Source: Corynebacterium haematomassiliense (GTDB lineage: Bacteria > Actinomycetota > Actinomycetes > Mycobacteriales > Mycobacteriaceae). From it: a DNA stretch of 64,000 nucleotides. The notes below the pieces were generated by a model that worked only from the letters and a program-made list of their open reading frames with translations, searched no databases and was not told the DNA's origin. The translations under genes and the position numbers were made by a program. Position 1 is the stretch's first letter, and the number at the start of each line of letters is the position of its first letter. Positions 1,638-49,188 of the stretch are shown in pieces. The stretch spans positions 1,178,001-1,242,000 of the forward strand of contig NZ_JACDTZ010000001.1 in assembly GCF_013978595.1 (NCBI RefSeq), read 5' to 3'.

Positions 1638-2993
1638 TTAGTTCTCCTCGGACTCCTCAGCCTCGTCCTCTTCGATCTCGCCGAAGTACTCGTTCGGGTC
1701 GACCTTGTTGCCGGCCTCGTCCTCGACCTGGGTGCGGGAGATGGCGATGGCCAGAGCCTTGCCACGGCGCACGTCGGAGAACAGGTTGGCAATCTGGCCG
1801 GACTGCTGCAGCTGGGCCACGAACTGGTTCGGGTCCATGCCGTAGGACTGCGCGGTGAACAGGATGTGGTCGGTCAGCTCCTGCTGGGAGACCTCCGGCT
1901 GCTCCTGCTCGGCCACAGCGTCGAGGAACAGCTGGGTGCGCACGGACTCTTCGGCCTGCTCGCGGGACTGCTTGTCAAACTCCTCGCGGGTCGTGCCCTG
2001 CGCCTCGAGCAGCTGGGCGAACGCGTTCTCGTCGTGGGCCATCTGGCCCAGCAGCTGGTGGAGCTGGTTGTGCACCTGCTCGTCCACCACGGACTCCGGC
2101 AGGGCGAACGTGGACTCTGCCAGGGCGACCTTGAGCACCTCGTCGCGGATGTCCGCGGCCTGCTTGGCCTTGGCGTTCTCCTCAACCTGCTCGCGGGTGG
2201 AGTTGCGCAGCTCCTCGACGGTGTCGAACTCGGACGCCATCTGCGCGAAGTCGTCGTCGAGCTCCGGCAGCTTGCGCTCCTTGGTCTGCTGGACGGTGAC
2301 CTTCACGGTGGCCTTCTCGCCCTTGTGCTCGCCGTACTGGATCTCGGACTCGAACTCTGCGTCCTCGCCGGTTTTCAGACCGCGCAGCGCGGTGTCCAGG
2401 CCCTTCATCAGGTCGTCGGCGCCGACGCGGTAGGTCAGGCCCTCGGCGGAAGCATCGTCGAGCTTCTCGCCGTCGACGGTGGCCTCGAGGTCGATGATGG
2501 CGTAGTCGTCGGTCTTCAGCTTGCGCTTGGTGTCCTTGAGCTCACCAAAGCGTTCACGGAGGGTGTCCAGCTCGGCGTCGACTGCTTCGTCGTCAAGCTT
2601 GAGCTCCGGAACCTTCACGGAGATCTTGGAGAAGTCCGGCACCTCGATCTCCGGGCGCACGTCGACCTCGGCGGTGAACTCGACGACGTCGTTGTCCTCG
2701 ATCTTGGTGATCTCGATCTCCGGCTGGCCGAGCGGGTTGATCTCGTTTTCCGCCAGGGCCTGCTCGTAGCGGGTCGGCAGCATGTCGTTGACGACCTGCT
2801 CCAGGATCGGGCCGCGGCCGAAGCGAGCGTCGATGAGCTGGCGCGGAGCCTTGCCACGACGGAAGCCCGGGATGTTGACCTGCTGGGCGATGGCCTTGTA
2901 GGCCTGGTCAATTTCCTTGCCCAGCTCGTCGAACGGCACGCTGACGTTGAGCTTCACGCGGGTGTCGCTGAGCTTGTCGACGGAAGTCTTCAC
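1638..2993 (-). CDS. tig: Trigger factor, ribosome-associated chaperone and prolyl isomerase
   Basis: Binds the ribosome exit tunnel and shields nascent chains. The 451 residues contain the N-terminal ribosome-binding domain with the signature GFRRGKAP near residues 44-51, the central FKBP-type isomerase domain (about 160-250) and the helical C-terminal domain, ending in a very acidic tail ([13 protein letters not shown]) that is common in actinobacterial trigger factors. The start is GTG 2993 behind an AGGAGA ribosome site. It stands upstream of clpP1P2 in the usual tig-clpP order, but a strong terminator and a 420-bp gap separate them, so they are probably transcribed independently. Confidence 0.97.
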
Positions 2994-3043
2994 GGATTTC
3001 TCCTGTACTAGATCGAAACAACGTTTGTCAGATGTTTATATGT

Positions 3044-3072
3044 GGCGGGCCCGCGGAAATCACGGGCCCGCC
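3044..3072 (-). terminator. Probable terminator downstream of tRNA-Pro
   Basis: A 10-bp perfect GC stem (GGCGGGCCCG, 3044-3053, paired with 3063-3072) around a 9-nt loop lies 1 nt past the tRNA CCA end. It lacks a T-run on the minus strand, so termination is inferred. Confidence 0.5.
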
Positions 3073-3073
3073 T

Positions 3074-3150
3074 TGGTCGGGGCGACAGGATTTGAACCTG
3101 CGACCCCCTGCTCCCAAAGCAGGTGCGCTACCAAGCTGCGCCACGCCCCG
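3074..3150 (-). tRNA. tRNA-Pro (anticodon TGG)
   Basis: Cloverleaf on the minus strand: acceptor CGGGGCG paired with CGCCCCG, anticodon stem CCTGC/GCAGG around TTTGGGA, T-arm GGTTCAAATCC, and an encoded CCA 3' end. 77 nt including CCA. Confidence 0.96.
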
Positions 3151-3250
3151 TTGCGGTAAAACCGCACGGTATGAACCACATTCGTTGAACGTGTGTAGTT
3201 CAGGACAGTCATTGTAGCGGTGCTTCAATCACCGTCCGCATTGAGGGCAC

Positions 3251-3282
3251 AAAAACACCGGCCCCGCAACCGGAACCGGTGT
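3251..3282 (-). terminator. Terminator downstream of tRNA-Gly
   Basis: The 7-bp stem ACACCGG/CCGGTGT (3255-3261 with 3276-3282) is followed on the minus strand by TTTTT and lies just after the tRNA-Gly gene. Confidence 0.6.
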
Positions 3283-3288
3283 CTTGTG

Positions 3289-3363
3289 TGGAGGGAATGA
3301 CGGGAATCGAACCCGCGTCTTCAGCTTGGAAGGCTGAGGTATTAGCCACTATACGACATTCCC
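3289..3363 (-). tRNA. tRNA-Gly (anticodon TCC)
   Basis: Minus-strand cloverleaf: acceptor GGGAATG/CATTCCC, anticodon loop CTTCCAA giving TCC, T-arm GGTTCGATTCC, encoded CCA end. 75 nt including CCA. Confidence 0.96.
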
Positions 3364-3448
3364 AGGCGCCGAAATCTGCAGCGCTGTGCGGAACTTTAGC
3401 GCAGGCGTATGCGTTGAACCAAACACGAACGAAATTTTAGGAGGAGTC

Positions 3449-4246
3449 ATGTTCACCCTGTTGCTCATTTTCTTGATGGTCGGCGCGTTGGTGATGTTGC
3501 CGAGCATGAGCGGGCAGCGGCAGATGCCCCAGTCGCGGCGCCAGGTGGCAAGGCAGCAGCAGCTGTCTTTCGACGACGCGTACGCCGACGCCAAACGGTG
3601 GACCGACCGTTTGGGCTCGCAGGTGCTGAACCTCTCCGGCAACGACACCGCCTCCCAGCAGGCGATGGCCGACGCCTCCGAGCGCTTCAACGCGGCATCC
3701 GCCGGGCTGAGCGAGGCACGCTCCGTCAAGCAGGCGATGCTCGCGCGCGAGTCCGCGCTGGAGGGCCTGCACTACGTCAACGCGGCCCGCGAGATCATGG
3801 GGCTTCCCGCCGGCCCGCAGCTGCCGGAGCTGGAGGGCCAGCGCCAGGCAGGTCGTGTGACCGAGCAGCGCACCGTCACGCAGGAGGACGGCACGCCGGT
3901 CATGGCGTCGCCGCACGCCACCGCGCAGACGCCGCACTACTACCCCGGCGGCGCCGTCGCGGGCCGCCCGGTGCCGGCCGGCTGGTACTCCACCGCGTGG
4001 TGGGGCCCGGCGATGATGACCGGCGTGTGGGCCGCAAGCTCCATGATGTTCTACTCCGCGATGTTCGCGGGGATGTCCGGCGTGGCGTCTGCAGAGGCGT
4101 TTGAGGCCGGCGGGCTTGGCGACGGCATGGACGGCGCCGGCGAGATGGGTGACATGGGTGACATGGGCGATGCCGGCGGCGACTTCGGGGGCTTCGGCGG
4201 GTTCGGCGACGGCGGCGGCTTCGACTTCGGGGGATTCGACTTTTAG
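3449..4246 (+). CDS. Membrane-anchored protein with Gly/Asp-rich C-terminus, function unknown
   Basis: 265 residues. The start at ATG 3449 is chosen because an exact AGGAGG-type site sits 5-7 nt before it; an upstream in-frame ATG at 3386 has none and overlaps the divergent tRNA region. The protein begins with a hydrophobic segment (MFTLLLIFLMVGALVMLP), then a charged helical, probably coiled region (residues 25-120), a Pro/His/Tyr-rich stretch, a second hydrophobic segment (WWGPAMMTGVWAASSMMFYSAMF) and a tail of Gly, Asp, Met and Phe (GEMGDMGDMG, GGFDFGGFDF). I do not recognise a domain. It lies just upstream of etfBA in the same direction, but with a gap, so a shared role is uncertain. Confidence 0.75.
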   Translation: MFTLLLIFLMVGALVMLPSMSGQRQMPQSRRQVARQQQLSFDDAYADAKRWTDRLGSQVLNLSGNDTASQQAMADASERFNAASAGLSEARSVKQAMLARESALEGLHYVNAAREIMGLPAGPQLPELEGQRQAGRVTEQRTVTQEDGTPVMASPHATAQTPHYYPGGAVAGRPVPAGWYSTAWWGPAMMTGVWAASSMMFYSAMFAGMSGVASAEAFEAGGLGDGMDGAGEMGDMGDMGDAGGDFGGFGGFGDGGGFDFGGFDF

Positions 4247-4306
4247 CCGTGCGTTACACTGCACAGCGATCGCGAACCCCAGAGAGCTCAAGAGCAAGGA
4301 GTGGCC

Positions 4307-5080
4307 GTGCGCATTGCTGTGCTGCTGAAAGAAGTGCCGGACACGTACAGTGACCGCGAAATGAACCTGGAGACGGGTTTGACGGACCGCTCCGGCGACG
4401 TCGTCGCCGACGAGGTCAGCGAGCGCGCCGTCGAGGCCGCGCTGCGCATCGCCGAAGCCGGCGAAAACATCGAGGTCGAGATCTTAAGCGTCGGCCCGGA
4501 GTCCTCCGCCGATTCGGTGCGCCGCGGCATCGCCATGGGCGCGAGCGAGGCCTACATCGTCTCGGACGACGCGCTCACCGGCGCGGATGCGACGTTGACT
4601 GGTGAGGTGTTGGCGAAGCTCGTCGAGAAGCAGGGCTACGACCTCGTCATCGCGGGCGCCGAATCGTCCGACGGCGGCACCGGTGTCATCGCCCCCTTCA
4701 TGGCCGAGCTGTTGGACTGGCCGGTGCTGACCAACCTCACCGAGCTCACGCTCGACGGCGGGACCGTGCGCGCCACCCAGGCCTCCGACGCCGCCACCGC
4801 CCAGCTCGAAGCGCAGCTGCCGGCCGTGGTGTCCGTCGCCGACGAATTCGCGGACCCGCGCTACCCCAACTTTAAGGGTCTGATGGCCGCGAAGAAGAAG
4901 GAACTGCGCACCGTCACCCTCGCCGAGCTCCGCGTGGACCCGGCGGACTTCACGCACCCGCGCGCCATCATGACCAGCATCGAGCGCCGCCCGGAGCGCG
5001 AGCGCGGCGAGATCATCGACGCGAGCTCCACCGCCGCGGCCCGCCTGGTGGACTTCCTCGAATCCAAGAACCTCATTTAA
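4307..5080 (+). CDS. etfB: Electron transfer flavoprotein subunit beta
   Basis: Beta subunit of the ETF heterodimer, which takes electrons from acyl-CoA and related dehydrogenases; it binds the AMP moiety. The N-terminus MRIAVLLKEVPDTYS, the region SVGPESSADSVRRGIAMGA and the C-terminal RYPNFKGLMAAKKKE are typical of the family, and 257 residues is the normal length. GTG 4307 is preferred because AAGGAG ends 5 nt before it; GTG 4301 is in frame but overlaps that site. etfA follows after 9 bp, so the two are co-transcribed. Confidence 0.94.
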   Translation: MRIAVLLKEVPDTYSDREMNLETGLTDRSGDVVADEVSERAVEAALRIAEAGENIEVEILSVGPESSADSVRRGIAMGASEAYIVSDDALTGADATLTGEVLAKLVEKQGYDLVIAGAESSDGGTGVIAPFMAELLDWPVLTNLTELTLDGGTVRATQASDAATAQLEAQLPAVVSVADEFADPRYPNFKGLMAAKKKELRTVTLAELRVDPADFTHPRAIMTSIERRPERERGEIIDASSTAAARLVDFLESKNLI

Positions 5081-5089
5081 GGAGCAGCC

Positions 5090-6019
5090 ATGACCCAGAT
5101 TCTTGTTGTCCCGGACCGCTCCTTCGACGGCTCGGTCAGCCCCGTTGCGGCCGAGCTCATCGGCGCCGCGTCCGCCATCGGCACCCCGGTGGTGCTGGCG
5201 CAGGACACCGCGCACGCAGAGGAGCTGGGTGCGCTCGGCGCCGCGGTGGTGCTGGTGTCCAACGCCCCGCTTATCGACGCAGCTGCCGCCGCGTTCGACG
5301 ACCTCTTCCCTGCCGCCGTCCTGTTCGCCCACACCGTGCGCGGGCGCGAAGCCGCCGGCCGGTTCGCCGCACGCACAGGCAAGGCGCTGCTCACCGACGC
5401 GGTGTCTGTGAGCCGCGACGACCAGGGCATCGTCACCGAGCACCAGAACTTCGGCGGGGTCTACACCGCTTCTGCCGCTGCGACGCACTCCGCGCCGGTG
5501 ATTACTCTGCGCAAGGGTGCGGTGGAAACGCGTACCGAGGCGGCCACGCCTGAGGTGCGCGAGTTGGAGGTGGCGCCGTCGGGACGTCGAGAGGCAGAAG
5601 TGCTCTCCGTGACTCCTGTGGAGCGCACCTCCGACCGCCCCGACCTGCTCACCGCCGACAAGGTGGTCGCAGGCGGCGTGTCCTTGGGCGACGAGGACAT
5701 GTTCGAAGACCTCGTCGGCGGACTTGCCGACGCGTTGGGTGCCGCCGTCGGCGCCACCCGCTCCGCCGTCGACGAAGGCCAGGTGCCCTACGAGGCGCAG
5801 ATCGGCCAAACCGGTGTGATGGTCAGCCCGAAGCTCTACATCGGCGTCGGCATCTCCGGCGCGGTGCAGCACCTGGTGGGCATGCAGACTGCCGACACCA
5901 TCGTGGCGATCAACTCCGACGAGGACGCCCCGATCTTCGACATCGCCGACTTCGGCATCATCGGCGACCTGTTCGACCTGGTGCCGGACATCATCTCCGA
6001 GATCGAGGCGCGTAAGTAA
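5090..6019 (+). CDS. etfA: Electron transfer flavoprotein subunit alpha
   Basis: FAD-binding partner of EtfB. The C-terminal FAD domain is clear: YIGVGISGAVQHLVGMQ followed by ADTIVAINSDEDAPIFDIAD and the closing GIIGDLFDLVPDI. 309 residues, slightly shorter than the typical 315-325. GGAGCAGCC ribosome site before ATG 5090. Its stop codon overlaps the ATG of the next gene (TAATG), so the downstream membrane protein is translationally coupled. Confidence 0.95.
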   Translation: MTQILVVPDRSFDGSVSPVAAELIGAASAIGTPVVLAQDTAHAEELGALGAAVVLVSNAPLIDAAAAAFDDLFPAAVLFAHTVRGREAAGRFAARTGKALLTDAVSVSRDDQGIVTEHQNFGGVYTASAAATHSAPVITLRKGAVETRTEAATPEVRELEVAPSGRREAEVLSVTPVERTSDRPDLLTADKVVAGGVSLGDEDMFEDLVGGLADALGAAVGATRSAVDEGQVPYEAQIGQTGVMVSPKLYIGVGISGAVQHLVGMQTADTIVAINSDEDAPIFDIADFGIIGDLFDLVPDIISEIEARK

Positions 6020-7428
6020 TGCAGGTAGAACTCCGCCGAGGACTGCCCCGCGTGCCGGGCGGCGAGCCGTGGCCGCCGGCCGGCACCGTCGACGTCGCCG
6101 ACGCGCCGACCGAGGACACTGCGGCTGACGTTGCACCCGTTGCCGACGCGGCCGAGACCGCAGAGGTGGCGCTGCGCCGCGGCCTGCCGCGCGTGCCGGG
6201 CGGCGAGCCGTGGCCGCCGGCCGGGTCGGTGCGCGTCGCGGTGCCCGCTGCCGCTGGTGCTTCCGCCGCGGCCGCCGACGTTGCCGACGTTGCCGAGCCG
6301 GCGCACACCGTCGAGGTGCCGCTGCGCCAGGGCCTGCCCCGCGTCGAGGGCGGCGAACCGTGGCCGCCCGCCGGCACCGTGCGCGTCGCCGCGCCGGAGC
6401 CGGAAGCCGAGCCGGAGCCACAGCCCGAGACCGCGGCGCCTGTGGCGGCGACGGTGGTGGACGATGCTGTCGCCAAGACGGCCCCCGAGCCAGCCCCGAA
6501 ACCGGCTCCGAAACCAGCCCCGCAGCCGGCACCCGCGTCGGCGACGGCGGGGAAACCGGAGGGCGTCGTAAGGCAATGGCTCCCATGGGCGATCGGTGCG
6601 CTGCTGCTGCTCGCCGCGGCCGTGTTCGGCGCGCGCTGGTACGTGGGCACCGAGGCCGGCGCCGACTTCATCGCCCGCTACAACGGCATCCAGCCGCTGC
6701 CGGACAACGCCCCCACCGGGCTGCCCGGCTGGCTGAACTGGGCGCACTTCTTCAACATGTTCCTGATGGCGCTGATCATCAAAACAGGCATTGACGTGCG
6801 CCGCGAGAAACGCCCCGCCGCCTACTGGCAGCCGAAGAAGGGCGGCAAAAAGATCTCGGTGACGCTCTGGCTGCACCAGCTTCTCGACGTCGCGTGGGTC
6901 GTCCTCGGCGTGGTGTTCTTCGTGCTTCTGTTCACCACCGGCCAATGGATGCGCATCGTGCCCACCAGCTGGGACGCGATCCCGCACGCGGTGTCGGCGG
7001 GCCTGCAGTACCTGTCGCTGGACTGGCCGACGGAAAACCCCTGGCTGTACTACAACGCGCTGCAGGAGCTGTCGTACTTCGTCACCGTGTTTATCGCCTC
7101 GCCGCTGGCCATCGTGTCTGGTTTCCGCATGAGCAGCATGTGGCCGGCGTCGTGGAAGGCGGTGCCGGTGTCGTGGGCGCGCGCGGTGCACTTCCCCACC
7201 ATGATTTACTTCGTGGCGTTTGTGGTGGTGCACGTGTTCCTCGTGCTCACCACCGGCCTGCGCGGCAACATGAACGCGATGTTCGCCGCGCGCGAGGACG
7301 CCACCAGCTGGATCGGTGTGGTGTTGTTCCTGGTCGCGGCGGGTGTGACGGCGTTGGGCTGGTTCTTCGCGCGCGCCTCGGTGGTCGCGCCTGTGGCGGG
7401 CAAGACCGGCAAGGTGTCCAAGCGCTAA
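6019..7428 (+). CDS. Cytochrome b/b6-like membrane protein with three GLPRV-GGEPWPP repeats
   Basis: 469 residues. The N-terminal ~180 residues are Ala/Pro-rich and contain three copies of a motif: LRRGLPRVPGGEPWPPAG at residues 3-20 and about 52-69, and LRQGLPRVEGGEPWPPAG at about 103-120. A Pro-rich linker follows, then five or so membrane segments from residue 190 onward with several histidines in or near them (for example NWAHFFNMFLMALI, LHQLLDVAWVVLG, HFPTMIYFVAFVVVHVF), a pattern suggesting a di-heme cytochrome b561/b6-type core. The start overlaps the etfA stop. I infer a membrane redox partner or quinone link for ETF, with the repeats as a possible docking motif. The heme ligands are not proven. 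Confidence 0.75.
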   Translation: MQVELRRGLPRVPGGEPWPPAGTVDVADAPTEDTAADVAPVADAAETAEVALRRGLPRVPGGEPWPPAGSVRVAVPAAAGASAAAADVADVAEPAHTVEVPLRQGLPRVEGGEPWPPAGTVRVAAPEPEAEPEPQPETAAPVAATVVDDAVAKTAPEPAPKPAPKPAPQPAPASATAGKPEGVVRQWLPWAIGALLLLAAAVFGARWYVGTEAGADFIARYNGIQPLPDNAPTGLPGWLNWAHFFNMFLMALIIKTGIDVRREKRPAAYWQPKKGGKKISVTLWLHQLLDVAWVVLGVVFFVLLFTTGQWMRIVPTSWDAIPHAVSAGLQYLSLDWPTENPWLYYNALQELSYFVTVFIASPLAIVSGFRMSSMWPASWKAVPVSWARAVHFPTMIYFVAFVVVHVFLVLTTGLRGNMNAMFAAREDATSWIGVVLFLVAAGVTALGWFFARASVVAPVAGKTGKVSKR

Positions 7429-7445
7429 AACTTTGCAACGTATAC

Positions 7446-7475
7446 CGCGGTGGCGTGCTTGCGCCACCGCGTTTT
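7446..7475 (+). terminator. Terminator of the etfBA operon
   Basis: Perfect 10-bp stem CGCGGTGGCG/CGCCACCGCG with a 6-nt loop, followed by TTTT, 18 bp after the membrane protein stop codon. Confidence 0.85.
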
Positions 7476-7583
7476 GCGTTTCTGTGGACAACTGTGTTGC
7501 GGCGTCAACAACCGGCGGGGGTTATCCACAGATTTTGATTTGGGTCTTGTTTGGTGTTGTGTGGCCGCCATAGCTTTCAGGCC

Positions 7584-8621
7584 ATGAACTTCACCGACTT
7601 TGTTTCCGCAGGCGTTTCCGTCCTCGCCGACTTCGACCGCGATGTAGCCATGGCCGCCGGCCTGTCGTCTGGCCGGGTCCGCGACTTGGCGCGGGTGCAC
7701 CACACCTACTTTGGTCCGACCCAATTCACCCGCAAACAACGCGACGCACTCGAAGCAGCGCACGGTCTGCCGGTCGACCAGCTCGTGCACATCGAGAAAA
7801 AACTCCTCGCCGTCGAAGGCGCCGCCGAACGCTGGCGCATCCGACTCGACCTGGTGCGCCACCGCGGCTCCTACCGGGCGTTGACCAAGCGGATCAAACG
7901 GCTGATCAAACAACCCGTCAAACCCGCCCCACCCTCGTGCAAGTTTTCCCGCTCCAAGGCCGGCATGCGCACCATGATCCTCACCTACAACGAGCGCGAC
8001 CTCGCCGATCTTGAGCACCTGCTGCGCAAACTCATCGACGCAGACGACCCCGCCGCCGCCCAAATGGCCCACACCCTTATCGGGATCCTGCGCGACGGCA
8101 AAGGCATACCGAAGGCGAACTTCCGGCCGATCATCCTGGTGCCGATCGCCGACTGGGCCCGCATCCAATCAGGCCACGCCGACGAAGTCACGTTGATCTG
8201 CACCGACGGCACCACCATGACCGGTGCCGAGTACATGGAGCACGAATTCGGCGACATACTCGAAGTCGCCGCGTTCCACCCCCAAGAAGGCCCGGTCAAC
8301 CTGTACTACGCCGAGCGCTGCGCCAACGCGAAGCAGAAGGTCATGTCGAAGCTGCTCTGCCCGGCCTGCGCGTTTCCCGACTGCAAACACTCGGCAGAGA
8401 CCACCCAAACCCACCACATCAACGCGTGGCGCTACGGGGGAATGACCAACATGGACAACCTCGCCGAACTGTGCCCCTTCCACAACGGGGTCAACGCCGA
8501 CAACAGGCAAGGCCCGTTCGGCTACATCGACAACCCCAACGCCCGCATCCACTGGGTCGCACCCAACGGCACACGCGTCCCCATGACCACCCCGGGCGCG
8601 ATGGAGCTGCTCTTCGACTAA
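7584..8621 (+). CDS. HNH endonuclease-family protein
   Basis: 345 residues. The C-terminus holds an HNH motif: a Cys pair (LLCPACAFPDCKHS), HHINAWRYGG, NLAELCPFHN. The helical N-terminus resembles the DUF222 / 13E12-type proteins common as multi-copy genes in actinobacteria. ATG 7584 is chosen over an upstream GTG at 7551 because the alternative adds only a non-conserved leader. The cellular target is unknown; such genes may belong to mobile elements. No partner gene of a restriction or defence system is adjacent. Confidence 0.8.
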   Translation: MNFTDFVSAGVSVLADFDRDVAMAAGLSSGRVRDLARVHHTYFGPTQFTRKQRDALEAAHGLPVDQLVHIEKKLLAVEGAAERWRIRLDLVRHRGSYRALTKRIKRLIKQPVKPAPPSCKFSRSKAGMRTMILTYNERDLADLEHLLRKLIDADDPAAAQMAHTLIGILRDGKGIPKANFRPIILVPIADWARIQSGHADEVTLICTDGTTMTGAEYMEHEFGDILEVAAFHPQEGPVNLYYAERCANAKQKVMSKLLCPACAFPDCKHSAETTQTHHINAWRYGGMTNMDNLAELCPFHNGVNADNRQGPFGYIDNPNARIHWVAPNGTRVPMTTPGAMELLFD

Positions 8622-8630
8622 CCACACACC

Positions 8631-8654
8631 GAAAACCCGCCCCGAAAGGGCGGG
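8631..8654 (-). terminator. Terminator of the leftward glycosyltransferase operon
   Basis: Stem CCCGCCC/GGGCGGG (8636-8642 with 8648-8654) followed on the minus strand by TTTTC, 25 bp past the stop of the N-formylglutamate amidohydrolase-like gene; may also serve the convergent HNH gene. Confidence 0.7.
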
Positions 8655-8679
8655 CACATCGGCATGCCCAAAAACGGCG

Positions 8680-9474
8680 CTACAGCGGGCGGCCCATGTC
8701 GGTGCGGGAAATCTCCACGGCCTTGCAGATCACCTCGGCCAGCGCGGCTTCGACGCGCACGCGCGACTCGTCGTTTTCCAGCAGGTCTTTGCGCACCTCG
8801 AACATCACGGCCAAAACGGAGGTGTTTTTGTCGTAGTCCACCGGCACGTACGCCCCGGCGAACGGGGTGTTGCGTTCGACGTTGAAGCCGGCGGCGGTGA
8901 AGGTGCGGGCGGCTTCGTCGGCAAGCACGGCGGGTGTGTGCACGGAGTGGGTGCCGATGCACACGTCCGGCAGGAGTTTGCCGGGGTGGATGCGGTACTC
9001 GTCGGGCTGGTTGTTGTACGAGTGCACGTCCACGATCACGGCGCAGCCGCAGTCCTGGATGCGGCCAGAGACCAGCTTCGATACGGCGTCGGCGTACGGG
9101 AAGTAGTACTCGGCTTTCAGGTCTGCGACGTCCATGTCCAAAGGCCGCAGCGGGTTGCCGTCGCCAAGCTTGAGGAAGATGGCGCCGCGCCCGGTCGAGT
9201 CCATGGATTCGCGTTCGTTGGAGAACCGCCCCGGGTCCGCGACCAGGCGCGAGAGGTTGTTCACGATCATCCACGGCGCGCACCCGGACTGCTCGGCGGC
9301 GGCCGCGGCGAGGGTGTCGGTGTGGTCGTCGGTGACGCGGTCGAGCTCGCGCGCAATCTGGTCGTCGGTGGCGATGAAATCAGCAGCAACCTCGGCCGGG
9401 ATCTCGCGCGACGCGTGCGGCACGTGCACGATCACCGGGCAGTCAGTGCTTCCCTCGTGGATGGTGAAGTTCAT
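8680..9474 (-). CDS. N-formylglutamate amidohydrolase-family protein
   Basis: 264 residues from ATG 9474. Family signatures include IVHVPHASREIP at the N-terminus, DDHTDTLAAAAA, VNNLSRLVADPGRF, VIVDVHSYNNQP and an IGTHSVHTP segment, all typical of the zinc-dependent N-formylglutamate amidohydrolase (HutG-like) fold. The gene is the last of a four-gene operon and overlaps the upstream glycosyltransferase by 32 bp. No other histidine-degradation gene is nearby, so I infer a different substrate, perhaps an N-acyl group on a sugar or small molecule made by the neighbouring glycosyltransferases. Confidence 0.88.
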   Translation of the reverse strand: MNFTIHEGSTDCPVIVHVPHASREIPAEVAADFIATDDQIARELDRVTDDHTDTLAAAAAEQSGCAPWMIVNNLSRLVADPGRFSNERESMDSTGRGAIFLKLGDGNPLRPLDMDVADLKAEYYFPYADAVSKLVSGRIQDCGCAVIVDVHSYNNQPDEYRIHPGKLLPDVCIGTHSVHTPAVLADEAARTFTAAGFNVERNTPFAGAYVPVDYDKNTSVLAVMFEVRKDLLENDESRVRVEAALAEVICKAVEISRTDMGRPL

Positions 9475-34241: not shown

Positions 34242-34318
34242 GGTGGCTGTAGTTCAGCTGGTAGAGCACCAGGTTGTGATCCTGGGTGTCGCGGGTTCGA
34301 GTCCCGTCAGCCACCCCA
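34242..34318 (+). tRNA. tRNA-His (anticodon GTG), island integration target
   Basis: Acceptor GTGGCTG/CAGCCAC with the extra G-1 opposite C73, anticodon loop TTGTGAT giving GTG, T-arm GGTTCGAGTCC and encoded CCA. Its last 38 bases are part of a 40-bp sequence repeated exactly at 45238-45277, so the 3' half of the present gene was supplied by the integrated element. Confidence 0.97.
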
Positions 34319-34322: not shown

Positions 34323-34356
34323 TACCCCGTAGCCTGCATAAACAGGTTACGGGGTA
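34323..34356 (+). terminator. Terminator supplied to tRNA-His by the island
   Basis: 14-bp stem with one wobble (TACCCCGTAGCCTG, 34323-34336, with 34343-34356) around CATAAA, directly after the tRNA. Confidence 0.65.
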
Positions 34357-34397: not shown

Positions 34398-34473
34398 ATT
34401 CTAGAAATCAGGCGCGGGTTAAGTAGCAGAAAGTGTGTCTGATTTTCGGGGTTATCACTGATCAGGCAGCATA

Positions 34474-34516
34474 AATCGGGCGTATATAAGGTGCGGAACC
34501 TTATATACGCCCGATT
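34474..34516. repeat. 19-bp perfect hairpin
   Basis: AATCGGGCGTATATAAGGT (34474-34492) is followed after GCGGA by its exact complement (34498-34516). There are no T-runs. It lies in the non-coding left part of the transposon. Confidence 0.8.
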
Positions 34517-34773
34517 CGCGTTCAATCCAGACGATCCACTCAAAATCGCCAGGCAGTGCAATTTCGGACAAGACCAACTCGCCAAAGTCAACGATCTTGC
34601 CGAAGAAGACCACAACAAAGCCAACCAAGAAACAGGACGACCAGCCTTCTACGACAACGCTATCCCAACCGAATACAACCACTCGATAGGAATCAGGAAA
34701 GGCCCCATGAAATAGCAAGCAAAGTGTCCGCCCGGCGACACGCCGAACGGACACACATTTTGCTACTTAACCC

Positions 34774-34881
34774 CTCATCGCCACCCTGGCCATCGCAGGC
34801 ATCGCGGGTCTGATCTCCTTGATTGCCCTGCTGGCACCGTTCGCTGTGGACCGTGCCCTCGGCCCGATCGCTAAGTTCTAG
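34774..34881 (+). pseudogene. 3' end of a membrane-anchored protein gene, cut by the inverted repeat
   Basis: Immediately after the internal inverted repeat the frame reads LIATLAIAGIAGLISLIALL, then APFAVDRALGPIAKF and stop: a membrane helix and short tail like the C-terminus of a surface-anchored protein. Upstream in frame there is a stop inside the repeat, so the 5' part is lost. It converges with the intact secreted-protein gene 7 bp away. Confidence 0.6.
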
Positions 34882-34887
34882 CCAGAA

Positions 34888-35607
34888 CTACATGCCCAAC
34901 ATCGGCAGTTTGATGCCGAAGTGGGGCAGCGCGAAGACGAGGCCTGCGATCACCAGCAGCGCCGCAATTACCCCACCGACAATGGCAGGCACGTTCGCGT
35001 CCGCCTTGGCGGTGGGGTATTTCACGTCCGCTCGCATGCCCTTGGTGCAGGTTTCGGCGGCGGTGGCGTCGGCGTCGTCGATAAGCATGCTCTTCGCGGC
35101 GACCTTCCCGGACGGGGTTTCCATCCACGCCTTGTACACGTCGCCATCCTTCGCGGTCAGCGGCGTCTCCATGCGCTTCGTGTCCTCCGGACCAACGCGC
35201 CACGAATTCGTGTCAATCGCCTCCAGCGTGCGATTCACCGTCGGCTCCGACTCCTTCATCGTCTTCTGCGCATCCGCATACTTTGCGACGAGACCCTCCG
35301 GCAACACCTTGCCAAACTCCGCCTTCTCACCCTTGAGCGCCTTCTCGTTCTCCGCGACAACGCCCGGGTAGACCTGCTCAATCGCCGCGATGAGGTCGCG
35401 AGCCTGCTCGTAGTCACCGATCGCCTTGGACTCGTCGAACCACGACTCGATGAAACGCTTCTCGGCCGGCGCAAGCTTCACGGCGCACACGCCGTCCTTG
35501 CCCTTTGCTGCGACGGTAGCGGCGTTCGCCGGGGTCGCGGCGACAGCGCCGAGTGCGAGCGTTGCTGCGGTTGCGTACGCGGCGATACGGGTGGTGGTGC
35601 TGGTCAT
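34888..35607 (-). CDS. Secreted protein with C-terminal membrane anchor, function unknown
   Basis: 239 residues from ATG 35607, behind a GAGGAAAA ribosome site. Signal peptide ITRIAAYATAATLALG-type with cleavage near ATPANA (residue 29), a helical, charged ectodomain with two Cys (GVCAVKL and AETCTKGM, possibly a disulfide), and a C-terminal helix AIVGGVIAALLVIAGLVFAL followed by a short tail. No LPXTG. It is cargo of the transposon. No known domain is recognised; divergent from the PLDc_N-like gene. Confidence 0.8.
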   Translation of the reverse strand: MTSTTTRIAAYATAATLALGAVAATPANAATVAAKGKDGVCAVKLAPAEKRFIESWFDESKAIGDYEQARDLIAAIEQVYPGVVAENEKALKGEKAEFGKVLPEGLVAKYADAQKTMKESEPTVNRTLEAIDTNSWRVGPEDTKRMETPLTAKDGDVYKAWMETPSGKVAAKSMLIDDADATAAETCTKGMRADVKYPTAKADANVPAIVGGVIAALLVIAGLVFALPHFGIKLPMLGM

Positions 35608-35745
35608 GATTTTCCTCCTCGGAGTGTGTGTACGGACCGTACCACCTCACTGTCCAGGAAGGCGTGTTGCGACAGCGTTAACGCGCGATGGTGGGAGGCG
35701 CTGGCCAAGTAGGATCTTGGGCGAAAACACAGTGTCAGAAGCAAT

Positions 35746-36054
35746 ATGATGAACCAGGGGTGGATGGAAATTTCACAAATGCAGTTAACCGCTTTGCAAG
35801 GCAATGGAGTTTCTCCATTAGAACCATCTCCGGTCGATTACGTTTTTATGCTGCTCACGTTGGCGGCTGTGGTGCTATTAGTTGCCAGTATCATTGTATT
35901 TTTCAGGCAACCTAACAGACGATGGTCGGATGTCTGGATCGTGCTCTTTCTGGTGTTCATACCCGTGGTAGGACCGTTGGCGTATCTACTGCATGTGCGG
36001 TCCCGCGGAAAGCGCGACAAAAGGGCCACATCTAACCCTCCGACACGCCGATAG
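35746..36054 (+). CDS. Small membrane protein resembling the PLDc_N family
   Basis: 102 residues. VFMLLTLAAVVLLVASIIVF and a second helix WIVLFLVFIPVVGPLAYLL followed by a basic tail (HVRSRGKRDKR) resemble the PLD-nuclease N-terminal (PLDc_N) domain: two helices with a Pro-x-x-Gly-Pro motif. Such stand-alone proteins include bacteriocin immunity proteins, but no function is shown here. The start is uncertain: ATG 35746, 35749 or 35764 (the last behind AGGGG). The stop lies just before the right inverted repeat of the transposon. Confidence 0.65.
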   Translation: MMNQGWMEISQMQLTALQGNGVSPLEPSPVDYVFMLLTLAAVVLLVASIIVFFRQPNRRWSDVWIVLFLVFIPVVGPLAYLLHVRSRGKRDKRATSNPPTRR

Positions 36055-36087
36055 CAGACACACTTTTTGCTACTTAACCCTCAGGCG

Positions 36088-36847
36088 CTAGTCATCGCCA
36101 CCATCTCGATCGCCTTCCCGGCAAGGCTGTTGCTGTTGCTGCTGTTGTTGTCTCCGCCGTGCCGTGGCGCGACGCAGCGCATCGAGTCGCCGCTGGTTCT
36201 CGCCGACAGTACGCAGCAGCCGATCGCGTTGACCGCCTACCGGTTTAACCAGTCGGGTGCGAGGCTTCGCGTATGCGGCGTGGTCGAGGGCGAGCGCATC
36301 ATCGTCAGCGAGCAAATGCTCGAAGTACTCAGCGTCAGTACCGTCAAACTCCGAGCGCTGGAATTGCCGAAATTCATCGTCCATCACGCGCTGTTCGAGG
36401 AAATCAAAATCGACCTGCCGCATATTCTCTACCGAGCTGTCGGGCGACCACGACGCGGGCGCACCGACTTGTTGGGGCGAGGACGACCCCGCTGAGGCCG
36501 CGCTGCTTCGCGCAGTGGGTTGCTGTTGTCGGCCCCAGCCTGCTGCGCATCTCGTTGTGCTTCGCTTCGGCTTCGGCCAACTGACGCTTCATCTTCTCGT
36601 CGTGGCCGTCCTTGTCGAAGATCTCGTTCATTCTCGCCGGGACGACCTACTCTATCTCGCTCTCCTTCATGCCCAACAGCTCGTCCTGCTCCGCTGTCGT
36701 GAACAGTGTCGGCAGTTGTTTCCGCGGCGGCGGGGGCGGTGTCGTTGTCGGTGTCGGCTTCGTCGGGGCTGTCGAGGTAGCGCCGTAGCGATTCGGCTCC
36801 GTTGGCACCTGCGATACCGACGGCTTGATCTGCTGGTGCGGGCGCAC
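36088..36847 (-). pseudogene. Degraded ORF with Pro-rich N-terminus and coiled coil
   Basis: The minus strand has MRPHQQIKPSVSQVP, a Pro/Thr-rich stretch and TTAEQDELLGMKESEIE, then an in-frame amber codon at 36647, continuing in the same frame with MNEIFDKDGHDEKMKRQLAE and AEAKHNEMRS; after a +1 shift near 36430 it continues with VDFDFLEQRVMDDEFRQF, ending in eight Gln. Product unknown. The 5' end overlaps the truncated integrase in antisense. Confidence 0.35.
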
Positions 36848-37593
36848 TCGTCCGCGATGGAGTCATTGCGGGCAACCCCATACGCGGGGCCAGGCTAGAC
36901 ATTCGAGCACAGGGGAAAGACGAAGTAGACGATCGTAGAACACTCACGAGCGAGGAATACGACACGGTTGTCAAGCACCTGCTCACGCGCGATATAAGCG
37001 GGCCGCTGGTGCAGCCGAAGAAAGGCGGGGCGCGGCAGTCAACAATCAACGCGCACGCCCGAGTTACGCGGCTGACGCTGCTACAGGCGGTAACAGGACT
37101 GCGCATCTCCGAAGCCAACCGCCTGCGCTGGGCACACGTCGAGGACAACGGCGAGAACATCATCATCAACGCGACCAAGGACATCGTCAAAGGTCGCAAG
37201 GGCAAGGAAAAGGGCCGCTACATACCAATTCTGCGTGAAGACGTAGCGGAATACCTGCGTACACACCGCGAGGACGAGGCGCACTACATCGTAGGCTCAC
37301 CGACGACGACGGCGAGGCCATGGGACGCGACCAACGCCGACGACAAAGTACCCGAGCTATACAAACAAATCGCCGACGAGACGGGTGTCGAGATTCTTCG
37401 CGACCTTCGCAGCCACTCATGGCGCGCCACACTGCACGGCGTGTACGCCGACGTGATGGACGCGAGGACACGGGCAGACATCTTCGGCCACACCGAGCAG
37501 ATCGCAGACGAGTACTACAACGACCGCGCCAACGTCGAAGCACTCATTCGAGCGACCGCGCAAGCACATACTTTCGTAGACACACCAAGGTAG
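36829..37593 (+). pseudogene. Tyrosine recombinase (integrase), N-terminally truncated
   Basis: The frame is open from 36829 (ALVRDGVIAGNPIRGARLD, then RTLTSEEYDTVVKHLL) to 37593; a TGA precedes it, and the arm-binding and most of the core-binding domain are absent. The catalytic domain looks complete: Arg in AVTGLRISEANRLRW, Lys in the beta-hairpin region (IVKGRKGKEKGRY), His-x-x-Arg in SHSWRATL, His in FGHTEQ and the nucleophile in ADEYYND. The first usable start in the remaining frame is GTG 37009. Presumed integrase of this island, probably no longer able to act alone. Confidence 0.8.
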
Positions 37594-37800
37594 ACATGCG
37601 TGCGCTGCAGTAAGTTGAACTAGCGAGCTGACACCAAGCTCGCAGCACCTTCTCCAAGCATCGATAGAGCTAACACGATAGAAATCGAGCCTGTGCCCAT
37701 ATCGACGAAGTGGCCGTATTGACTGATGCGAGTGGTCGGGTGTGATGTAGACTTCCCGCATGGCACGGGTGTGCGGTTGTAGTGGTATGAGCTGGGGTTA

Positions 37801-42371: not shown

Positions 42372-43812
42372 GAGGGTGTCAGGAAGTTTGTGTGTGAGGC
42401 TCTGATCTAGAAGGAGTTTCACCGATAATGACTACGGTGTCACCGAAGAAAAACCATGACCCGGCAAAGGTCAATGAGATCAGCGAGAAGCTGATGGAAA
42501 ATCCTGAGCTCGCCAGCTTGATCAGCGAGCTGTCGGCTTCCGCTGATGATGCAAGCGAGCTGGTCAAAGGCCTGCTGCAGGCATCGATCAACGCTGGTCT
42601 GCAGGCGGAGATGGATGCGCATTTGGGCTATAGCCATTCTGACCGCAAGACGAAAGCCCAAGTCGAATCCGCACAGGGCAACAATCACCGCAATGGGTCG
42701 TACACCAAGACCGTCAATTCTGGCTACGGCGCGTTGGACGTGACCGTGCCCAGGGATCGTGCCGGCACGTTTACTCCCCGGATGGTGCCCAAGGGTGCAC
42801 GCCGGCTCACAGAACTCGACGACATGATCGTCTCGCTATACGCCGGCGGGATGACAGTGCGCGATATCCAGCATCACCTCGTGACCACGCTCGGGGTGGA
42901 TATGAGTCCGGATACGATCAGCACCATTACCGATGCGGTGTTAGACGAGGTCATGATCTGGCAAAACCGTCAGCTCGACGAGTTTTACCCGGTGATCTTC
43001 CTCGACGCGCTACGCGTCAAGATCCGTGACGGGCACCGCGTGGTCAACAAGTCCTGCTATATGGCGGTTGGTGTCGACATGGACGGCATCAAGCACATCC
43101 TGGGATTGTGGATCGCTGAAAATGAAGGTGCCGCATTCTGGGCATCGGTGTGCGCGGATCTGGCCAACCGCGGTGTCCAGGACGTGTTCATTGTCTGCTG
43201 CGACGGGCTCAAAGGCTTGCCGGAAGCCGTGGAAGCCACCTGGCCGAATTCCATGGTGCAGACCTGTATCGTGCACCTGATTCGGGCTGCGAACCGGTGG
43301 GTGTCGTATCAGGACCGCAAAGGTGTCTCCCGGGCGCTGCGTGAGGTCTACACGGCCACAAACGAGGACACCGCCCGTGCCAGCTTGGATGCGTTCGAGG
43401 CCAGTGAACTGGGCCGGAAATACCCGCAGTCGGTCAAAGTTTGGCGCGACGCTTGGGAGCGGTTCGTGCCGTTTTTACAGTTTCCGCCGGCGGCACGCCG
43501 GGTGCTCTACACCACGAATTCGATCGAGTCGCTGAATGCTGAACTGCGGAAAGCTACCCGTAACCGCGGGCAATTCCCGAACGATACCGCGGCGCTGAAG
43601 ACGCTTTGGTTGATGATCTGCAACATCGAAGACAAGCGCGCTGCGCAGCGAGCCAAGAAAGCGAAGCGCGACGTTGAGTGCAACGGCTATATTGAAGGAG
43701 CGAAAGCCACCGGGTGGAAACAAGCCATCAACCAACTAGCCGTGGCTTACCCCGACCGATTCGCGGACTACTTGTAAACCAAACCCCCGCACACAAAGAA
43801 TCGGACACCCTC
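42372..43812 (+). mobile_element. IS256-family insertion sequence, intact
   Basis: 1,441 bp. Ends GAGGGTGTC at both termini, with further imperfect repeat (GTTTGTGTG / CTTTGTGTG). The 8-bp direct repeat AGGAATGC flanks it (42364-42371, 43813-43820). It carries one full-length transposase gene on the plus strand, opposite to istA. The intact TSD and ORF suggest a recent insertion. Confidence 0.95.
42428..43777 (+). CDS. IS256-family (mutator-type) transposase
   Basis: 449 residues, full length. DDE catalytic residues: Asp in PVIFLDALRVKI, Asp in FIVCCDGLKGLP, Glu in TTNSIESLNAELRKATR, with the mutator signature HLIRAANRWVSYQDRK and NRGQFPNDTAALKTLWL. It moves the surrounding element by a copy-out mechanism with 8-bp target duplication. 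Ribosome site AAGGAG 12 nt upstream of ATG 42428. Confidence 0.96.
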   Translation: MTTVSPKKNHDPAKVNEISEKLMENPELASLISELSASADDASELVKGLLQASINAGLQAEMDAHLGYSHSDRKTKAQVESAQGNNHRNGSYTKTVNSGYGALDVTVPRDRAGTFTPRMVPKGARRLTELDDMIVSLYAGGMTVRDIQHHLVTTLGVDMSPDTISTITDAVLDEVMIWQNRQLDEFYPVIFLDALRVKIRDGHRVVNKSCYMAVGVDMDGIKHILGLWIAENEGAAFWASVCADLANRGVQDVFIVCCDGLKGLPEAVEATWPNSMVQTCIVHLIRAANRWVSYQDRKGVSRALREVYTATNEDTARASLDAFEASELGRKYPQSVKVWRDAWERFVPFLQFPPAARRVLYTTNSIESLNAELRKATRNRGQFPNDTAALKTLWLMICNIEDKRAAQRAKKAKRDVECNGYIEGAKATGWKQAINQLAVAYPDRFADYL

Positions 43813-48315: not shown

Positions 48316-49188
48316 CTAGACCGCAGGCGGTGCCGGCGGCGCCGACGGCGCGACCGGCTCCGCGATGGTGATGATGTTGTCGGCGTACCCCAGGGCCCCG
48401 CCGACGAACTGGCCGCCGCAGGTGATCAGCACCAGGCGGTTCGGGCCGGTGGCGTCGTTGACCTCCGGCGGGAAGTCCGAGCCCTTCGGCAGCCGGTACG
48501 GCGCCTGGGTGACGCGGAAGGTGCGCGGCGTGCCGTCGATGAGCACGTCGAACTCCTGGCCCACCGCCATGTTGGCGAAGCGGGCGGCGTACCCGGTGCC
48601 CTGGCCCTGGTAGTTAATGTGGCCGGTGATCACCGACGAACCCACGGCACCCTCTGCCCCCGGCACGGCCGAGGCGGAGTACCAGCCCAGGCGTGAGACG
48701 TCCGCCGGCGGGATCAGCGCGCCAGCTTCCGTCAGCTGCACCGGGTCCACCGCGGCGATGTCCCCGCCGACACTCAAGGCCATCCCCTCGATGCCGTCGA
48801 ACTGGCCCGGCGCAGCCTCGTACTGCATCTCCTGCTCGCCCTCAGGGTCGACGTAGCCGCCCTCCGTGGGCACAGGGGACTCCTCGCCCGGCTCCTGCTC
48901 CGTCGCGCCCTCAGGGGCCTCGCCTGCCGACGGCGCCGCACTCTCCCCCACCGGCACCTCACTGGCGGCGTCGGTGCCGGCAGGCTCGTCGTCGTTGTTG
49001 CGGAACGCGAAGATCGCAAGCTGCAGCAGCACCAGCGCGATCGCGATGATGGCCACGATCGGCCACCACTTGCGGCGCTGTTGTGTTTCCTCGCCGTCGC
49101 TCAGGCCGTCAAGCCTGTCGTCCTGGTCTTCGAGCCGGTGCTTTCCGCGGCCCGGTTCGGGGGTGCTGCCAGAGATGGAGGTGGACAT
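48316..49188 (-). CDS. Class F sortase
   Basis: 290 residues. Cytoplasmic Arg/Asp-rich start, one membrane helix (WWPIVAIIAIALVLLQLAIF), a long acidic Pro/Glu linker (65-125), then the sortase beta-barrel. Catalytic His in SSVITGHINYQG and Cys in RLVLITCGGQF; a basic residue is expected before the end. Class F sortases of actinobacteria act on LPXTG-like proteins, but no substrate with a clear sorting signal is encoded in this window, including the large VaFE-repeat protein. Confidence 0.88.
   Translation of the reverse strand: MSTSISGSTPEPGRGKHRLEDQDDRLDGLSDGEETQQRRKWWPIVAIIAIALVLLQLAIFAFRNNDDEPAGTDAASEVPVGESAAPSAGEAPEGATEQEPGEESPVPTEGGYVDPEGEQEMQYEAAPGQFDGIEGMALSVGGDIAAVDPVQLTEAGALIPPADVSRLGWYSASAVPGAEGAVGSSVITGHINYQGQGTGYAARFANMAVGQEFDVLIDGTPRTFRVTQAPYRLPKGSDFPPEVNDATGPNRLVLITCGGQFVGGALGYADNIITIAEPVAPSAPPAPPAV

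Follow-up and report, generated by a model that had tools for sequence, protein, structure and literature searches.

A repeat-bounded unit downstream of tRNA-His

The window, a 64,000-nucleotide stretch of Corynebacterium haematomassiliense (contig NZ_JACDTZ010000001.1, positions 1,178,001 to 1,242,000), contains a unit of 1665 bp at 34416-36080 that lies past a tRNA-His gene (Table 1). Its 26-nt terminal inverted repeats (TIRs) match at 25 of 26 positions (96% complementary), and the whole is bracketed by two perfect copies of the octamer TCAGGCGC, an 8/8 agreement expected by chance alone at ~1.5e-5 (4 to the power -8). Both features had been reported in a preliminary description of this DNA and were confirmed here, as was a third, internal copy of the right-end repeat. 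The 13-mer GGGTTAAGTAGCA, at ≤1 mismatch, occurs at three places only in the 2.58-Mb host genome, and these are the three TIRs of the unit. The hairpin directly past tRNA-His is likely a terminator. Genomes and loci are denoted below by our own handles (G and L numbers), G000 being the host.

Table 1. Features of the unit and its surroundings, in window coordinates
Feature	Position	Strand	Remarks
tRNA-His (gtg)	34243..34318	+	ARAGORN; neighbour of the target; last base 98 bp before the element start
Hairpin directly past tRNA-His	34323..34356	+	Inverted repeat, 14 nt, 93%
8-bp target duplication TCAGGCGC, left copy	34408..34415	n/a	
Left TIR (5' end of left IS)	34416..34441	+	
Left IS1249-family copy, internally deleted	34416..34773	+	Alignment to G038 IS
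19-bp perfect inverted repeat, IS left end	34474..34516	n/a	
74-codon ORF over transposase C-terminus	34491..34715	+	Match to G038 transposase
Internal TIR (right end of left IS)	34750..34773	-	24 nt
Alkaline phosphatase gene, 3' end	34774..34881	+	Residues 719-756 of G189 protein, then stop
239-aa protein gene	34888..35607	-	Secreted, with C-terminal membrane anchor, by eye
102-aa small membrane protein gene	35746..36054	+	Weak PLDc_N-like match, below cut-off
Right IS stump, last 63 bp of second IS1249-family copy	36018..36080	+	89% to G189 IS
Right TIR	36055..36080	-	
8-bp target duplication TCAGGCGC, right copy	36081..36088	n/a	
Tyrosine recombinase C-terminal part (Phage_integrase)	37009..37593	+	Outside the unit, context

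The internal TIR sets off a 358-bp left part that had been described as a non-coding miniature unit. It represents an internally deleted IS; codons for a transposase C-terminus lie at 34503-34712, so it is not non-coding by origin. We rejected a free-standing MITE because this part lacks a duplication of its own (TCAGGCGC on the left, CCTCATCG on the right) and showed no dispersed copies among the matches listed, where its 334-bp TIR spacing was found once each in G000, G215 and G217. The proposal of a small composite transposon without a transposase was borne out, the 74-codon C-terminal ORF being all that is left of the enzyme.

Beyond the right duplication, 36089-37600 is a broken-looking stretch that includes the C-terminal part of a tyrosine recombinase. 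Parts of it recur near tRNA-His in G130 and G149, and therefore this tRNA may also have served an integrative element. Further along, a full-length classical IS256-family transposase (459-aa frame) occupies 42428-43774; the host genome has five copies of this kind.

Ancestry of the ends, the cargo and the target site

We searched 201 genomes of the genus, 116 of which gave some match, and aligned the hits locally. Unit positions 1-114 aligned to the left end of a 1411-bp IS in G038 at 85% identity, and positions 112-358 to its right end at 95%; the left IS is a ~111-114 bp left end joined to a ~247 bp right end, with the ~1.05 kb middle gone. A search for microhomology at this join revealed none that was clear. 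The 406-aa G038 transposase scored 508 bits against the NCBIfam IS1249 model NF033544 (cut-off 300), and window 34503-34712 matched its residues 338-406 at 87%, placing the left end in the IS1249 family through this full-length relative. The G038 IS also has a palindrome related to the 19-bp inverted repeat near the left end of the unit. The right stump is the 3' end of a G189-type IS, starting inside the last transposase codons, and the last residues of the 102-aa membrane protein are read out of it. The third TIR closes the left IS on its inner side, and the unit is bounded on the right by the stump of a second IS.

The repeat family, which had gone unrecognised, is identifiable as IS1249 (IS256/Mutator superfamily), and the alignments show that both ends of the unit descend from it. 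IS1249 itself, as carried by the Corynebacterium striatum plasmid pTP10, ends in GGGTTAAGGGTCA..GTGTGTC and is flanked by a duplication of 8 bp; the window unit, with ends GGGTTAAG..GTGTGTC and its own 8-bp duplication, is of the same kind. Within 36018-36080 the right end is a hybrid, with a GTAGCA-subtype tip outside and G189-type sequence inside. This hybrid was absent from every full-length IS that we fetched and was found only in the window unit.

The search for an autonomous partner, which the preliminary description had called for, succeeded in part: full-length ISs with the GTAGCA tip of the unit exist in G038 and other genomes, but the complete copy in the host has another tip. We do not consider that host copy (G000:C1:605503-606702) cognate because its tip is GGGTTAAGGGTCA, the tip of IS1249 itself, its identity to the G038 transposase is 60%, and it has no matching duplication. 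The host also carries a partial IS1249-type copy at 601763 and small fragments. A plasmid search returned six records, five of which matched from query position 228 onwards (the right-end part of the IS), and the sixth (H6) matched only query 1719-1781, the right IS stump. On plasmid pB85766, IS3503, which itself has IS1249-type ends, is inserted exactly at an IS1249 right end, and its duplication is made from the IS1249 tip (L355, 2729-4108).

The cargo block is 93% identical to the chromosome of G189, where the phosphatase end and the rest of the block lie 5.3 kb apart; G195, G104 and G022 align across that join at 64-69%. The cargo is a chromosomal segment in G189, G016, G195, G104 and G022, and in G189 it is followed downstream by an IS1249-type copy. 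The G189 phosphatase matches the PRK10518 model. No Pfam or NCBIfam match was obtained for the 239-aa secreted protein, and a scan of genome contigs confirmed no named relative for it. On contig C3 the host keeps its own phoA, 88% identical to that of G189, together with a roughly 50% identical paralogue of the secreted protein. Since the cargo is ~93% identical to G189 and diverged copies native to the host are retained elsewhere, the cargo is probably foreign, and we infer a relative of G189 as its source. The dN/dS of the secreted-protein gene was 0.17 between the window and G189, 0.27 against G215, and 0.48 against G217, the last on 5 differences only.

An empty site with a single TCAGGCGC, suggested earlier as a check, was found in G110. 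Past tRNA-His this genome reads ..GATTCTAGAAATCAGGCGCTAGTCAT.., the left flank of the window followed by its right flank, with one octamer at the join (..AAATCAGGCGCTAGTCAT..). G144 has the same arrangement, its octamer differing by one substitution (TCCGGCGC). The 1665 bp therefore entered as one unit, with the secreted protein and the small membrane protein as its cargo, as had been proposed. In G110 and G144 a different IS1249-type copy lies a few bp beyond, with its own duplication CTAGTCAT. G149 carries an IS at nearly the same place past tRNA-His (duplication AAGATTCT), and G130 an IS-end-like remnant there. Taken together, these insertions mean that the same ~30-bp stretch has been struck repeatedly.

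The unit with its three TIRs is also present in G215 and G217, at the identical site and with the identical TCAGGCGC. G217 matches the window locus at 99% over 4.2 kb; in G215 the left 2.1 kb match at 95% and the right 412 bp at 99.5%, and the membrane-protein gene has since been broken by a classical IS256-type element. Shared descent or transfer of the locus would each account for the same insertion in these three genomes. A further single TIR lies at 49179 in G215; otherwise, among the matches listed, there is one unit per carrier.

A composite transposon and its decay

Two IS remnants in direct orientation, a single duplication around the whole and a unit-free site in relatives are the marks of a composite transposon, here with the 74-codon ORF in place of a functional transposase. 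We conclude that the unit is very probably a decayed composite built on the plan of Tn5432, which moved as one block and landed according to a rule of its family, past tRNA genes. In this scenario, two direct-orientation IS1249-family copies would have flanked the cargo in a relative of G189. A single transposition acting on the outer IS ends would have brought the block to a point 98 bp past tRNA-His, making the TCAGGCGC duplication. The left IS would have lost its ~1.05 kb middle, and only 63 bp of the right IS would have remained, leaving no transposase. Except for the hybrid tip on the right, the anatomy of the unit is accounted for. The genomes searched yielded no donor composite in which both ISs are intact.

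Tn5432 has the structure IS1249-erm(X)-IS1249 and occurs, for example, on C. striatum pTP10. Like Tn5432 as presented in PMC10383950 and PMC8304765, the window unit has two IS1249-family copies, with transposases on one strand, bounding a cargo. The window unit differs from Tn5432 in that both ISs are deleted and belong to two subtypes, the cargo is chromosomal and carries no resistance, and the location is the chromosome past tRNA-His.

The two internal deletions are common to the host, G215 and G217, all at one site, and because of this the loss of transposase may precede or follow the jump. A history that we regard as possible, if somewhat doubtful, is that the transposases were already gone and that a full-length IS1249-type enzyme encoded elsewhere moved the block by its ends, which is the trans-mobilisation put forward in the preliminary description. 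Mobile insertion cassettes (MICs) of the IS231 type have passenger genes between IS ends, without transposase. The window unit has this layout too, but without dispersed copies among the matches listed. Mobilisation in trans would fit with outer ends kept at 25/26 that share the GTAGCA tip, as though suited to a single transposase, despite the different subtype of the right IS further in, and with the presence of full-length ISs bearing that tip in other genomes. IS1249-ended units that have a duplication but lack an intact IS1249-type transposase also occur elsewhere (G214, 815 bp; G016, 4489 bp; G149, 6747 bp). However, the three carriers each have one unit among the matches listed, at the same site, so that no movement after decay was seen, and the tip of the host's complete IS1249-type copy is a different one, GGGTTAAGGGTCA. 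We slightly favour loss of the transposase after the jump over mobilisation in trans. Two independent IS insertions around a resident segment, with a coincidental outer duplication, are very improbable: the cargo is chromosomal in relatives, with an IS1249-type copy lying downstream in G189, but this reading is already contradicted by the cargo-free site in G110 and G144, as well as by the 8/8 duplication round the whole, the phoA locus that the host keeps elsewhere and a left unit that has no duplication when taken alone.

We thus retain a composite that jumped as a block as the preferred reading, and it makes the window element a clean case of a Tn5432-type composite that moved ordinary chromosomal genes between species and then decayed. 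Pack-MULEs, which are listed among eukaryotic elements, are non-autonomous Mutator-like elements with cellular gene fragments (PMC3942029); compared with that account, the window unit has complete genes as well in its cargo, and its origin is a composite of two ISs.

Insertion of IS1249-type elements past tRNA genes

We investigated where IS1249-type elements land by fetching 100 regions around their transposases, mostly full-length, in list order and regardless of position. The sample was drawn from the matches listed, with partial places passed over, as well as L029, L042 and L043, which had been selected on other grounds. It comprised 107 places (L152-L251), of which 85 had both ends delimited (22 undelimited places were dropped) and 71 had a perfect 8-bp duplication (14 more dropped). 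We observed that 35 of the 85 delimited copies lay ≤250 bp 3' of a tRNA gene, against a chance value of ~0.5% (52 tRNAs in the 2,578,128 bp of the host); on the 5' side there was 1/85, and 50/85 were not within 250 bp on the 3' side. The 3' copies were 11-204 bp from the tRNA, 31/35 of them at 41-143 bp; the neighbouring tRNAs represent 14 amino acids, and 19 of 26 genomes have such a copy. By end subtype, the fraction was 16/26 for GTAGCA, 7/15 for GTGACA, 7/21 for ACGACA, 5/22 for GGGTCA and 0/1 for GCGACA. The right end of the IS faced the tRNA in 30/35 (two-sided p = 2e-5); in the window unit it is the left end that points to tRNA-His, as in the minority of copies (5/35).

As a control we used the classical 449-aa IS256-family transposase of the genus (70 places, 4 duplicates dropped, 66 distinct), 40 of the 70 places coming from seven genomes that also gave IS1249-type places. 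We had considered an IS3503-like identity for this control and rejected it, given that IS3503 has IS1249-type ends. None of the 66 control places lay 3' of a tRNA at a distance of ≤250 bp from the transposase match. For a shared criterion we measured from the transposase match in both families, with a looser length limit that gives 108 IS1249-type places. At 300 bp, 41/108 IS1249-type places qualified versus 1/66 of the control (Fisher p = 2.5e-9), and at 500 bp 41/108 versus 2/66; on the 5' side within 300 bp the counts were 2/108 and 0/66.

All these data concern standing insertions, none of them fresh, and the tRNA excess might reflect the survival of harmless insertions in place of targeting. 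We consider this unlikely, and survival alone does not explain the excess well: the control family gave 1/66 against 41/108, and neither the orientation bias (30/35) nor the 3'-side bias (35 versus 1) follows from neutrality.

Outside the genus, a class-wide search gave matches in 7 of 394 genomes, two of them belonging to the genus. Among the 6 places in the 5 non-genus genomes, one right end lies 70 bp past tRNA-Val (L345) and one place whose ends were not found is separated from tRNA-Val by 204 bp, measured from the transposase match (L347); at the other 4 the locus contains no tRNA.

We then examined hairpins around the insertion sites. At tRNA sites, the strongest hairpin lay 20-60 bp before the insertion, with mean minima of -18.7 versus ~-11 kcal/mol on the other side. 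A hairpin of ≤-12 kcal/mol within 80 bp was present at 28/31 tRNA sites versus 2-9/31 at far offsets, and a hairpin with a T-rich tail pointing to the site at 17/31 versus 2-3. The signal was weaker at the 40 non-tRNA sites with perfect duplications (21/40 versus 10-13/40 at far offsets), where the right-end flank differed from far offsets at one-sided p = 0.017, the left-end flank did not differ significantly from them, and right versus left flank gave p = 0.11.

An Rfam run on 58 loci (IS1249-type places, most of which lack a tRNA close by, plus some larger units, L029 and L065) identified tmRNA at two loci and 5S rRNA at two more. IS1249-ended elements with perfect 8-bp duplications lie 22 bp (L260, G069, 1832-4656) and 72 bp (L258, G016, 1748-6236) 3' of tmRNA. 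The 5S rRNA matches were at 129 bp (L217, an IS past the gene) and 302 bp (L229). The remaining matches were the tRNA on the 5' side of L209 and two leaders distant from the IS; for most non-tRNA sites among the 58 loci the run gave no stable-RNA explanation. A Corynebacteriaceae leader RNA at a locus of the same genus, like the plasmid matches, points to Corynebacterium as the genus.

Our best guess from these sequence patterns is that a terminator, or terminating transcription, may be the recognition signal; IS1249-type transposition may read the terminator hairpin or the terminating RNA polymerase 3' of the tRNA. We consider it probable that IS1249 transposases direct oriented insertion ~40-145 bp 3' of tRNA, tmRNA and 5S rRNA genes, probably via the terminator or the terminating polymerase. 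This would constitute a bacterial parallel to the way Ty3 targets tRNA genes in yeast and a new specificity within the Mutator superfamily, with the window composite as one product.

Ty3 is named as an analogy in PMC3942029, which describes insertion upstream of sigma-A promoters by TnGBS, ISLre2 and some ISKra4 elements, mostly oriented, with the right end towards the target. Compared with these elements as described there, the IS1249 type shares a Mutator-superfamily transposase and a feature-directed, mostly oriented insertion, whereas its copies go 3' of tRNA genes and not upstream of sigma-A promoters (PMC3942029). The same paper calls IS256 insertion random, a judgement made on promoters and flanking motifs. 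Its main text names neither tRNA nor IS1249, and because of this IS1249-type elements may not have been among those it examined. In the openly accessible literature searched, we found no paper on tRNA- or terminator-directed insertion of IS1249 or IS256, and the part of PMC3350403 consulted contains nothing bearing on it. As far as searched, the landing rule of the IS1249 family past tRNA genes is undescribed.

The family-wide tRNA bias outweighs the element itself in importance. If true, the landing rule would explain decayed cargo units at tRNA loci without an integrase, and it would offer a second, integrase-free route by which foreign genes gather at tRNA loci. The bias also predicts the chromosomal landing places of IS1249-type transposons, perhaps including carriers of erm(X), and opens to experiment the question of how tRNA genes or the termination of transcription could be read by a DDE transposase.

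A further 20 TIR-bounded units of larger or smaller size, selected on TIR spacing, were kept outside the statistics; about half had no tRNA or tmRNA nearby. Four IS1249-ended units of 2.4-6.7 kb retain only a C-terminal remnant of an IS1249-type transposase, at one end: L254 (G149, 2006-8752), L255 (G211, 1908-6937), L256 (G177, 1947-4309) and L258, with matching duplications at L254 and L258 only. Three short units of 306-1127 bp, L263 (G214, 1388-2202), L268 (G086, 1209-2335) and L270 (G055, 1318-1623), each lie 72-170 bp 3' of a tRNA, with duplications at L263 and L268.
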